In this document: piece after piece, positions 9,905 to 13,984 of the stretch | Layout: the number at the start of each line of letters is the position of its first letter | Position numbering within the stretch: the stretch's first letter is position 1 | From: an uncultured Prevotellaceae bacterium | GTDB taxonomy: Bacteria > Bacteroidota > Bacteroidia > Bacteroidales > Bacteroidaceae | Assembly: GCA_946415645.1 (NCBI GenBank) | Contig: CAMKTJ010000010.1 | Coordinates: 1-64,000, forward strand | Direction: 5' to 3' | Length of the DNA stretch: 64,000 nucleotides | Translations under genes and position numbers: made by a program | Notes under the pieces: generated by a model | What the model saw: the letters and a program-made list of their open reading frames with translations, nothing else | What the model was told of the DNA's origin: nothing | Databases searched by the model: none

Positions 9905-10260
9905 TAAACCATTTCTTTAACATCATATATACATACTACCCTACTCTTTAAATCAAGTATTTCATATATATAGAATATATTTTATATTTATTATATACAA
10001 TATACTTTATATATATTATATAGTTTATATAGTTAGTATATCCTATATATGTTGTATATTTTGTATGTTTCTTATATGTGATATATACTGCATATATTTA
10101 TATCTAATATATTTATTTATTTCGTTTATACAGATATATGATGTATATGTATATTTTCTATATTTAATTATACAGAATATTTATATAGAAGTATATTCAG
10201 AATATGTTATATAGCAGAATATACAAAATATTTGAAAAATATCATTGCCATATGAGGATA
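9905..10260. other. very AT-rich zone upstream of parA
   Basis: About 350 bases made almost entirely of TATATA-type sequence with hardly any G or C and no convincing gene. Such a zone could unwind easily; it abuts the replication/partition module. Confidence 0.7.
10173..10222 (+). repeat. three CAGAATAT direct repeats before parA
   Basis: CAGAATAT begins at 10173, 10198 and 10215, each near TATATAG. Repeats directly upstream of a parA promoter are often operator or centromere sites for the small partition protein; that role is inferred here. Confidence 0.45.
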
Positions 10261-10297: not shown

Positions 10298-11143
10298 ATG
10301 GCAAAAGTAATTTCTATTATCAATGACAAGGGTGGGGTAGCAAAGACTACAACTACCATTAACCTGGGAACAGCCCTTTGGCTGCTTGGAAAGCGCGTTC
10401 TGCTGGTGGACACAGATAAGCAATGTAACATGACCATAACAATAGACAGATCAAGCTACAAAGTAGGTGTCTCAACATTATATGACTGGCTGAAGGATGA
10501 CAAAATTGCTCCTCCTGTATATGAACGCTATAATGGCATGGATTACATACCAAGTAGCGTACGAATAGATGAGCTTAATACCTGGTTGGCAGACAAGGTG
10601 TACAGAGAGAATTACCTGACTATACGCCTGAATGCATTAAGAGATATGTATGACTATATTCTTATAGACTGTGCACCAGGATGTAACAGTATCCTTAACA
10701 AGAATGCCATAGCCGCTTCTGACGGCGTTATTGTGCCAGTAAGAACTGATCTATACTCTGTACAAGGAAAAGACGCTGTACGGACCATTGTGGACGAAGT
10801 AAACAAGATGATGGGAAAGAACATTGAGTTGATGGGGTATCTGCTGACTCAGTTCGAGAAAACAAAAATGGGTAAGGAAGTACAGGAGTTCTTCCGTTCA
10901 CAACCCAACACACCAGTATTCCCGGTTCCAATTCGTAAGTGCGCCAAGTGTAACGAAGCACCAAAGGAACAGATGAGTCTGTTTGAATACGCACCAAACA
11001 GTACAGCTGCAGATGACTATATGCGTCTGGCAGAGCAGATAATAGGGAAGGGGACACGAAACAAGAAGTGGACACCCGCTGCATGGAATAAAAAAGCAAG
11101 CGAAGCATATTTATCATTCATAAATGAACAAGAAAAAGAATAG
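10298..11143 (+). CDS. parA: ParA-type partition ATPase
   Basis: Cytoplasmic deviant-Walker ATPase that segregates low-copy replicons. Residues 4-19 carry the deviant P-loop (KGGVAKTTT, with the signature first lysine), LLVDTDKQ is the A' motif, and YILIDCAPG is Walker B. Length 281 with no N-terminal DNA-binding domain places it with the small (type Ib-like) or Soj-like ParAs. It starts 23 bases after a -7 box and is followed after 14 bases by a ribbon-helix-helix gene, the expected partner. The C-terminal 30 residues (WTPAAWNKKASEAYLSFINE) are basic and family-specific. Together with the iterons and rep gene downstream it forms a replicon core. Confidence 0.93.
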   Translation: MAKVISIINDKGGVAKTTTTINLGTALWLLGKRVLLVDTDKQCNMTITIDRSSYKVGVSTLYDWLKDDKIAPPVYERYNGMDYIPSSVRIDELNTWLADKVYRENYLTIRLNALRDMYDYILIDCAPGCNSILNKNAIAASDGVIVPVRTDLYSVQGKDAVRTIVDEVNKMMGKNIELMGYLLTQFEKTKMGKEVQEFFRSQPNTPVFPVPIRKCAKCNEAPKEQMSLFEYAPNSTAADDYMRLAEQIIGKGTRNKKWTPAAWNKKASEAYLSFINEQEKE

Positions 11144-11547: not shown

Positions 11548-11557
11548 CCCCCACAAA

Positions 11558-11670
11558 GGTTACTTTCTCCTCAATAAAGCAGGGGAAAGTAACCTTCTCC
11601 TCAACAAAAGGCGGGGTTTCTTGCAATCTAAGGTAACCTTCTCCTCAATTTAAGGTTACGTTCTCCACAA
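11558..11670 (-). repeat. iteron cluster A (4 units, inverted)
   Basis: Four 17-base units of the form GGTTACTTTCTCCTCAA at 11558, 11588, 11632 and 11654; this is the reverse complement of the units in the other clusters. The last two are 22 bases apart. Confidence 0.85.
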
Positions 11671-11838
11671 GAAACTTACGCAAAACGTTGTTTTTCAACA
11701 ACATACAATCACCTAATATAGATAATATAGTTAATATCCCTAATAAAATTACTTCTTTTATTTATATAACATATTATGGATATTAATATATGTGTTAAGC
11801 CTAACTTATTGAAACCCAGTGGTTTCCAAAAAACGAAC

Positions 11839-11948
11839 TGCGAAGAAGGTAATCTTGTTTTGAGGAAAATCCAACCTTAAAATGCGGAAAAAGGAACTTT
11901 TTATTGCAAAGAAAGTAACTTTTTGTTGAGGAGAAAGTAACCTTATAG
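11839..11948 (+). repeat. iteron cluster B (5 units, exact 22-bp period)
   Basis: Units start at 11839, 11861, 11883, 11905 and 11927, with the best copy reading TGAGGAGAAAGTAACCTT. The flanks at 11690-11800 and 11990-12130 are very AT-rich and could serve as the unwinding region. Confidence 0.88.
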
Positions 11949-12137
11949 GCTTTTTTAGCGTTTTCTGGGCCTCTTATTTAAACATTTGCTTTAACTTTCA
12001 GAATAACTGATTATGTGATAATTCCCTAAAATTTTGGAATATTTTACATCTTATTTCTTTGTAATACAATAATTTGAATATTTTTTCCTCGTGCAAAACA
12101 TTAAAATATTATTTTCAGCACACTATAATATAGTTTT

Positions 12138-12205
12138 TGAGGTCTTGGTTACTTCTGAATTGAGGAGAAGGTAACTTCCGAATTGCGAAGAAAGTAACCT
12201 TTCTC
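12138..12205 (+). repeat. iteron cluster C (3 units, 23-bp spacing)
   Basis: Units start at 12138, 12161 and 12184 (TGAGGTCTTGGTTACTT, TGAGGAGAAGGTAACTT, TGCGAAGAAAGTAACCTT). Confidence 0.82.
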
Positions 12206-12409
12206 TTCTTTTTGCTTGAAAAGAAGGGTAGGGGACATCATTGATTAACTCTTAGCTATTAATACTGATATTTGTTACTATTTATAGTCGCAAGTGTTAG
12301 TATTAATACCCGCAAATATTTCTTATATTACTTGTCTTTCATGATTGTATGGGTAGAAAAATCTTTGCTCCAGTTAAGGATATATTTTTCCTTAGTTAGG
12401 TAATGTTTT

Positions 12410-12448
12410 ATTCCCAACGTGGGAATAATTCATTCCCAGTGTGGGAAT
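12410..12448. promoter_or_regulatory. two tandem palindromes in the origin region
   Basis: ATTCCCA-ACG-TGGGAAT at 12410-12426 and ATTCCCA-GTG-TGGGAAT at 12432-12448, centres 22 bases apart (two helical turns). Perfect 7-base arms suggest a dimeric DNA-binding protein that binds cooperatively; the protein is unknown. Confidence 0.7.
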
Positions 12449-12532
12449 ATTTTTATATACTCTTGAGAATTATATCCTTGCTTCTTTCTTAAGATAAAAA
12501 CACAACTCAGTTATAATTGTTTTTTGCTTAGT

Positions 12533-12664
12533 GGAGAAAAAAGTAACCTTTATTTGAGGTTCAAGTTATCACGTTTTGAGAACCTGGTTTTCTCTTTTTG
12601 AGGGTTAAGTTATTTGTTCCTGAGGAGATGGTTTCTTCCTCTTGAGAACAAGGTAATCAATAAA
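12533..12664 (+). repeat. iteron cluster D (6 units, exact 22-bp period) before rep
   Basis: Units start at 12533, 12555, 12577, 12599, 12621 and 12643. They are more degenerate than cluster B but keep TGAG..nAAGgTa in phase. The cluster ends about 35 bases upstream of the rep -33 box, so Rep bound here could repress its own gene. Confidence 0.85.
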
Positions 12665-12730: not shown

Positions 12731-12756
12731 CGCGTACATTATATAATATATATAGG
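12730..12756 (+). repeat. leader repeat before rep (copy 1)
   Basis: GCGCGTACATTATATA followed by further AT dinucleotides and TATAG. A near-identical copy lies at 13958-13984 just after the rep stop, so the two flank the gene. Confidence 0.8.
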
Positions 12757-12758
12757 CA

Positions 12759-13943
12759 ATGGCTACAAAGAAAACAAACGGTAAGTTGCAGATGGTAAGT
12801 CCGAAAAACGAGCTTATACAGCAGTTGGAGAATTCGGATTACATAAAAAATCCACTTGTTTATTCACAGATAAGGGGAGATTTCTCGCTTATTCAGACCA
12901 ATGTTCTTGTGGCTATAGCTGCAACTATGCAGACCCGAATCAATGAAAGATTCGTTGAGGGAAAGATGGGACCGCTCTTTTCTGAGGAGGAATTGTCCAA
13001 GGGTAAGATCACTTTCGAGGTTCCTTTGCAGTCTTTGGGAGTAAAAACCAAGGAGTATGCTGCCGTTCATGAGGCCTGTAAAGCGCTCACAAAACTGGAT
13101 ACAACCATCAATTATACTGATGTTGACGGGCAGAAAAGAACAAAGACCAGTGTCATTTTTACTGATGTTGACGTGCCGACATACACTACAACTACAGGTC
13201 AGGAGCGAAGAAGTGGTATCATAAAAATTGATATGAACGCTTCTGTTGCCGACCTTGTATTCAACAAAAGTGGTGCTTACGTTGAACATTTAGGTGGAAT
13301 TGTTAAGCTTTGTCGCAGTCCCAGAACGCCCCGTTTGTATATTTATTTAAGTGCCTGGAAGAAAATGCGAATGTGTACGCTGGGTTACGAAGCCTTGAAA
13401 GAGTTCCTTGGAGTGCTGGTTTACAGCAAGGATAGGACCAAGGTTTTGCAAGATAAGAGTTCTACATGGGCTGTTTTTCACAGAGATGTATTGAAACCTG
13501 CTCAGCGCGAGATGGAAAAATTGGCTAAACGTGGCGAAATAGAGTTCACCTTCGAATACGAACCGGTCTATCATAATGGTAAGAAAAGGGGTAACCCAGA
13601 CAGTGTACGTTTCCTTCTAAACCCAGCTGTTCCTGATGCTAATGTTCAGGAGGAGGACAAATCGCCTAACGCTGAGGTTAATCACCTGACGGAAGAACAG
13701 CAGACCAAGTGGTTCCAATTCATGCAATTGGTACAGGAAAGGGTAGGGGAGCCGTTCTTCAGTACCTACTTTGTTTATTGTAGAATAGGAAGTATTACGG
13801 ATAAACACATCACTATTATCACACCCAATCAGTTTGTCAGTGAACAGATAGAGAAGAGTGGAGCTGATTTCTTCTTGAGTTTGAAGGAGGTATTCGGTCC
13901 TGTAACCCTGTCGTATAAGGTGGAGAATCCTTCGTACAAATAA
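12759..13943 (+). CDS. Rep_3-type replication initiator with C-terminal DnaA-domain-I-like module
   Basis: Binds iterons, opens the origin and recruits the replisome. The first ~290 residues fit the double winged-helix Rep_3/RepB family: LVYSQIRGDFSLIQTNVLVAIA, then the second winged helix TPRLYIYLSAWKKM...LKPAQREMEKLAKRGEIEFTFEYEPVYHNGKKRGNP. After a charged linker, residues 318-388 look like DnaA domain I: WFQFMQLVQERVGEPFFSTY, then ITIITPNQFVSEQIEK and FFLSLKEVFGPVTLSYKV. They match the Trp at the start, the PNxFV motif and the strand/helix order. Domain I of DnaA recruits DnaB and self-associates. At 394 residues it is longer than usual Rep_3 proteins. Iteron cluster D lies directly upstream. 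Confidence 0.9.
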   Translation: MATKKTNGKLQMVSPKNELIQQLENSDYIKNPLVYSQIRGDFSLIQTNVLVAIAATMQTRINERFVEGKMGPLFSEEELSKGKITFEVPLQSLGVKTKEYAAVHEACKALTKLDTTINYTDVDGQKRTKTSVIFTDVDVPTYTTTTGQERRSGIIKIDMNASVADLVFNKSGAYVEHLGGIVKLCRSPRTPRLYIYLSAWKKMRMCTLGYEALKEFLGVLVYSKDRTKVLQDKSSTWAVFHRDVLKPAQREMEKLAKRGEIEFTFEYEPVYHNGKKRGNPDSVRFLLNPAVPDANVQEEDKSPNAEVNHLTEEQQTKWFQFMQLVQERVGEPFFSTYFVYCRIGSITDKHITIITPNQFVSEQIEKSGADFFLSLKEVFGPVTLSYKVENPSYK

Positions 13944-13957
13944 TGACTTCTCCTTAC

Positions 13958-13984
13958 GCGCGTACATTATATATTATATATATA
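13958..13984 (+). repeat. leader repeat after rep (copy 2)
   Basis: GCGCGTACATTATATA plus TATA run and TATAG, as at 12730-12756. It lies in the 96-base gap before the PI-PLC-like gene. Confidence 0.8.

Follow-up and report, generated by a model that had tools for sequence, protein, structure and literature searches.

The stretch of DNA analysed here, called the window, comprises 64,000 nucleotides (positions 1 to 64,000 of contig CAMKTJ010000010.1, GenBank assembly GCA_946415645.1) from an uncultured Prevotellaceae bacterium whose nearest named relatives are rumen inhabitants. It encodes a Rep_3-type replication initiator, Rep, in which a two-winged-helix core of the iteron-binding type is joined through a short linker to a DnaA domain I at the C-terminus; this fusion is conserved. 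The locus coincides with a switch point of the GC skew, as expected of an origin. Together with parA, a small gene and an iteron array, rep would form the replication module of a large secondary, chromid-like replicon in this Bacteroidaceae/Prevotella-type bacterium.

A Rep_3 initiator that ends in a DnaA domain I

An earlier sequence-only reading had proposed that a Rep_3 iteron initiator in the window carries a module like DnaA domain I at Rep residues 318-388, and had staked this on a DnaA_N profile match and a domain I-like fold. Both were found, the open reading frame (ORF) at 12759-13943 encodes 394 residues with the quoted segment where it had been placed, and the structural half of the proposal is now backed by family models, profile comparison and a predicted fold. 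Its functional half, namely recruitment of the helicase in the manner of DnaA, perhaps with DnaA-independent initiation or coupling of both origins, stays a hypothesis. The parts of the gene are:

12759-13943, forward strand: rep, Rep_3-type initiator of type A, 394 residues (ORF, Pfam, predicted fold)
12837-13634, forward strand: predicted two-winged-helix iteron-binding core, Rep residues 27-292
13644-13682, forward strand: predicted flexible linker, Rep residues 296-308 (predicted local distance difference test, pLDDT, below 50)
13686-13925, forward strand: DnaA domain I module, Rep residues 310-389 (Pfam, profile comparison, hidden Markov model, hhalign, predicted fold)

Pfam detects DnaA_N (PF11638) in Rep residues 316-367 at 26.7 bits (cut-off 24.6), the WH1 and WH2 domains of Rep_3 iteron initiators are present, and Rep3_N and Rep3_C score slightly below their Pfam cut-offs. 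The NCBIfam DnaA model TIGR00362 covers Rep at model positions 1-55 only, so that the AAA+ domain III and the box-binding domain IV of DnaA are absent. The predicted structure of the module, compared by VIA-align, has the domain I fold of DnaA. As a single sequence, the Rep C-terminus retrieved from the PDB just two DnaA chains, as weak matches; one of them was also the top match of the whole Rep (E 0.13), followed by properdin chains at E of 1 or more. A profile of 32 module sequences reached B. subtilis DnaA at E 1.5e-5 and 1.2e-4 and the T. maritima-type DnaA entry 2z4r at E 0.053, with non-DnaA chains appearing from 0.1 upwards. With hhalign, the match of Rep modules to DnaA amounted to 97.7% for type A, 94.5% for type B (both subfamilies are described below), 99.3% for the more distant L069/L070/L071/L078 and 73% for g14, whereas two sets of Rep tails used as controls gave 0.6% and 0.2%. 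A hidden Markov model (HMM) built from 27 DnaA rows scored above 6 bits in no ORFs other than Reps and DnaA itself. The F of the PNxF motif (F359) is almost invariant across Rep modules and is the same in most DnaA rows, and W318 aligns with a Trp common to the DnaAs of the genus. That the module is a short alpha/beta tail resembling DnaA domain I by chance, with no homology, is extremely improbable, since the fold concurs with the sequence models and with a profile comparison whose negative controls were clean; the module profile search, the non-Rep ORF controls and hhalign led us to reject it.

Distribution of the fusion and origin of the module

A protein search gave 221 homologues, and the domain scan covered 101 members, some of them fragments: the window Rep and 100 of the best 120 that were listed. 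At E ≤0.01, DnaA_N was found in 85 of the 101, Rep3_N in 94 and Rep3_C in 76. Scanning contigs for Rep yielded 37 loci, all from metagenome-assembled genomes (MAGs) or uncultured isolates by title, mostly Bacteroidaceae, Bacteroidales or Prevotellaceae and many from ruminant digestive tracts. One MAG contig labelled Clostridia (L011) holds a 65% identical type A Rep and is possibly a mis-binned Bacteroidota contig. Within the genus, 66 of 139 genomes gave some match to the Rep query, a count that includes genomes matched via DnaA alone: the query also matches the N-termini of genus DnaA genes at E 3e-6 to 9e-4 (15 fetched, all read as DnaA). In the family, 37 of 399 genomes matched at E ≤1e-20, some with and some without the module. 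Among ten more distant Reps, DnaA_N is above the cut-off in L078 (same genus) and L069, L070 and L071 (genus g2), below it in L065, and missing from five.

Applied to 63 Reps, the DnaA HMM gave 6.7-51.3 bits near the C-terminus of 51, and 0.8 bits or less in 12 (L014, L025, which is ended by a contig edge, L041-L044, L068, L073 and L074-L077). According to Pfam, DnaA_N is absent from the Reps of P. nigrescens, two Segatella plasmids and Prevotella sp. E2-28. By eye, the C-termini of the Segatella plasmid Reps L042, L044 and L182 look like a very degenerate DnaA domain I, but hhalign gives 0.6%. Across the phylum DnaA_N was matched in 388 of 392 genomes, twice in 22 of them; 14 of these 22 were searched again and seven loci read, with no Rep_3 fusion among them (judged by eye, four are DnaA, one is DnaX-like, one may be a replication protein and one is of unclear kind). 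A Bacteroidota protein of about 540 residues (L122; DnaA_N 30.3 bits), by eye neither DnaA nor Rep_3, is possibly another replication protein with a DnaA_N module.

The Reps fall into two main subfamilies, type A of about 390 and type B of about 490 residues. The window's own assembly holds both, with dnaA on contig C9, the type A rep on C10 and a type B rep on C4, and five other genomes do so as well (locus pairs L004/L031, L006/L030, L007/L034, L008/L024 and L010/L026), which makes six. The type B Rep of the window's genome (L003) reaches just 20.0 bits with DnaA_N, below the cut-off of 24.6, and is the lowest DnaA-HMM scorer among the 51 Reps with a module signal. At type B loci parA lies on the opposite strand, and the repeat, present at 3-9 sites per locus in 24 loci with several 22-bp spacings, differs from the type A iterons. 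Such differing iterons would fit two compatible replicons in one cell.

In a tree of the domain, which has 77 columns and many long branches, the modules of type A, type B and L065/L069/L071/L078 stand on one side of a branch supported at 95/97, apart from the genus DnaAs, and those of L070 and g14 fall among other DnaAs. Whether the domain was captured recently from the DnaA of the host was tested on this weakly resolved tree and rejected, as the type A and type B modules are not among the genus DnaAs. On the tree of the Rep core, the presence of the module needs at least four changes, which either one origin followed by losses or repeated gain could account for.

The loci as probable origins of large replicons

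The other features of the type A locus are as follows:

9958-10233, no strand: very A/T-rich repetitive stretch upstream of parA, holding the cumulative GC-skew minimum of the window (about 10004)
10298-11143, forward strand: ParA-type partition ATPase (Pfam, NCBIfam), 94.6-95.3% identical in L004-L008 and L010
11158-11547, forward strand: small protein gene following parA, with 89-93% identity to its counterparts in L004-L008 and L010
11556-12550: iteron origin, 13 sites that match TTGAGGAGAAAGTAACCTT at 14 or more of 19 positions, most of them in reverse orientation at 11556-11670 or in forward orientation at 11838-12550
12411-12447, no strand: pair of TTCCCAnnnTGGGAA palindromes upstream of rep, spaced by 22 bp
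12731-12744, forward strand: element CGCGTACATTATAT upstream of rep
13959-13972, forward strand: second CGCGTACATTATAT copy, right after the rep stop codon

The iterons adjoin rep within the 1.2-kb region between parA/the small gene and rep, mostly in two opposed arrays. Their start-to-start spacing is often 22 bp or a multiple thereof, degenerate copies extend to about 12658, and the 13 sites compare with 0.03 in base shuffles. Six other type A origins have 10-14 sites each. The gene pair of parA and the small protein is kept in six related loci, in most of which the flanking genes on both sides are syntenic. The small protein has no Pfam match and is, by its position, a candidate partner of ParA.

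The analysis of GC skew covered 16 contig segments that contain rep (4 type A and 12 type B). In 13 of them the cumulative minimum is no more than 2.6 kb away from the rep locus, where about 1.3 are expected by chance; gene orientation bias also contributes to the skew. The tail probability is 3e-12 under independence, for genomes that are related and of which two (G000 and G051) give two segments each. Both of these have skew minima at both rep loci. Given these 13 segments, the rep loci look like working origins of large replicons. Enrichment of DnaA boxes was seen neither in seven type A origins (none exact, two with one mismatch versus 2.8 expected) nor in 24 type B origins (one exact, 13 with at most one mismatch versus 12.7 expected). 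This test has no working positive control, because three box-pair patterns found no box cluster anywhere in the window's own draft assembly, and we did not accept the missing boxes as proof of DnaA independence. Iteron arrays with no DnaA-box enrichment and a skew minimum at the locus are consistent with the functional half of the earlier reading.

The locus has plasmid-type replication and partition genes (rep, parA and iterons). The window also carries housekeeping genes, namely a SpoU-type rRNA/tRNA methyltransferase (below curated cut-offs), upp and protoporphyrinogen oxidase; the latter two have no other full-length copy in the assembly, an 86.6% complete draft. Genes for tRNA occur on 5 of 55 stretches scanned from other contigs and nowhere in the window. 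A small mobile plasmid or phage was rejected: the Rep_3 relatives in PLSDB are just 22-27% identical, with 38 records of which none covers 80% of the query, and none was found in the phage collection. Two other Reps gave 43 and 38 PLSDB records, again with none covering 80% of the query, and none of eight PLSDB Reps read (L041-L044, L182-L185) exceeds 3 bits with the DnaA HMM.

Two smaller elements were noted beside rep. CGCGTACATTATAT occurs in exactly two copies in the window, flanking rep on both sides, and shuffles predict none. Its 15-base form GCGCGTACATTATAT is found in 17 of 185 fetched loci (several genomes fetched twice are among the 17), all with a type A rep or its edge and 11 with two copies; the type A loci L009 and L011-L013, which are more distant, lack it. 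The PINSR repeat of P. intermedia, considered as a possible identity of this element, is 188 bp long (PMC4755523). The TTCCCAnnnTGGGAA palindromes, a possible operator, are in none of the six related type A loci examined.

Proposed role of the module

DnaA domain I is described as serving oligomerization, helicase loading and the docking of partners (PMC4980987). Fused to an initiator, it could allow Rep to perform these functions itself. The winged helices of Rep would bind the iterons, and the bound Rep would melt nearby A/T-rich DNA. We think it rather likely that, once the origin is open, the tethered domain I recruits DnaB to it, or else a partner or loader of this helicase. The secondary replicon would thereby start without DnaA bound at its origin, through the same helicase-docking surface as the main chromosome.

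Several observations weigh against this picture. In most type A and B rows, F occupies the position of E. coli DnaA Glu21, a DnaB contact (Glu21 and Phe46 both have functional roles in E. coli), and the genus DnaAs have Q there; at the W25 position, Rep types A and B carry Y or F. Sixteen of the 101 scanned homologues have no DnaA_N match, and L014, a member of the type A clade, lacks the module. It is also missing from the Rep of the P. nigrescens 568-kb replicon and from four genus-g6 Reps examined (25-28% identity), so that the module is not obligatory. It is only 25-36% identical to matched genus DnaAs and stands outside them in the short-domain tree, and may therefore have been repurposed. 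Three of the 16 skew segments have no minimum at rep, namely G105:C13, G036:C66 and G128:C3, of which G128:C3 has hardly any left flank. Finally, the assemblies are drafts, so that a separate replicon is deduced and not proven.

The main rival holds that the module pairs mainly with domain I of the host DnaA: Rep would bring (or titrate) DnaA at the iteron origin, obtain the helicase via DnaA, and couple the firing of the secondary replicon to the chromosome cycle. The action of domain I in DnaA self-association (PMC4980987 and PMC10797057) and the shared Trp at W318 speak for it, and it needs no DnaA boxes at the origin; the divergence of the module from the genus DnaAs and its place in the tree, weakly resolved as that is, make it somewhat unlikely. 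We consider it quite unlikely that the module takes no direct part in helicase loading and instead docks a regulatory factor (DiaA/HobA/SirA-like or ParA-like) or dimerizes to control copy number. Several regulators are bound by domain I, and partners differ among species (PMC4980987); some sister Reps also function without the module, but the F of the PNxF motif is kept. Extending the helicase-recruitment proposal to the whole cell, we tentatively suggest three kinds of origin in one genome: DnaA would drive the main oriC, and each of two secondary replicons would be run by its own Rep_3-DnaA domain I fusion (A and B, with different iterons). All might feed the same helicase-docking interface, the secondary replicons firing with no DnaA bound at their origins.

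Compared with the known Rep_3 iteron initiators (R6K pi, mini-F RepE; PF01051/PF21205), the window Rep has an additional C-terminal DnaA domain I, and its origin shows no DnaA-box enrichment and mostly two opposed iteron arrays. The module shares sequence family and fold with DnaA domain I (PF11638; PDB 4tps, 2wp0), yet lies at the C-terminus of Rep instead of the N-terminus of DnaA and comes with neither AAA+ domain nor domain IV. RctB of Vibrio chromosome 2 is not known to contain a DnaA domain I. According to a review, the RctB-DnaB interaction and a role of DnaA in DnaB loading are still to be shown, and RepC is supposed to contact the helicase directly (PMC6090056). Chromids and second chromosomes are already known in Prevotella (PMC12456017, PMC4755523). 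Large replicons of related bacteria likewise carry a Rep_3 gene, namely P. intermedia chromosome II (PMC4755523), the P. nigrescens 568-kb replicon and those of genus-g6 genomes; near the P. intermedia gene the authors of PMC4755523 saw no iterons or plasmid-maintenance genes. Two genus-g6 genomes of two contigs each have module-less Rep_3 genes on contigs of 1.80 and 1.95 Mb (L074, L075), which may be the larger of two chromosomes. The P. nigrescens 568-kb record (NZ_CP082843.1, L041) is filed as a plasmid and, with mutS2 and smpB near rep, looks like a second chromosome. In the portions of the open-licence literature searched, we found no description of a Rep_3-DnaA domain I fusion.

How secondary chromosomes get their helicase is an open question on which this fusion bears, and the 80-residue module makes it testable. 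Evolution has here placed the docking domain of the chromosomal initiator on a plasmid-type initiator, in two paralogues of one genome and at origin-like loci. The fusion adds to the idea that initiators are built from exchangeable DNA-binding and docking modules, and suggests one route by which secondary DNA may call in the replication machinery of the cell.
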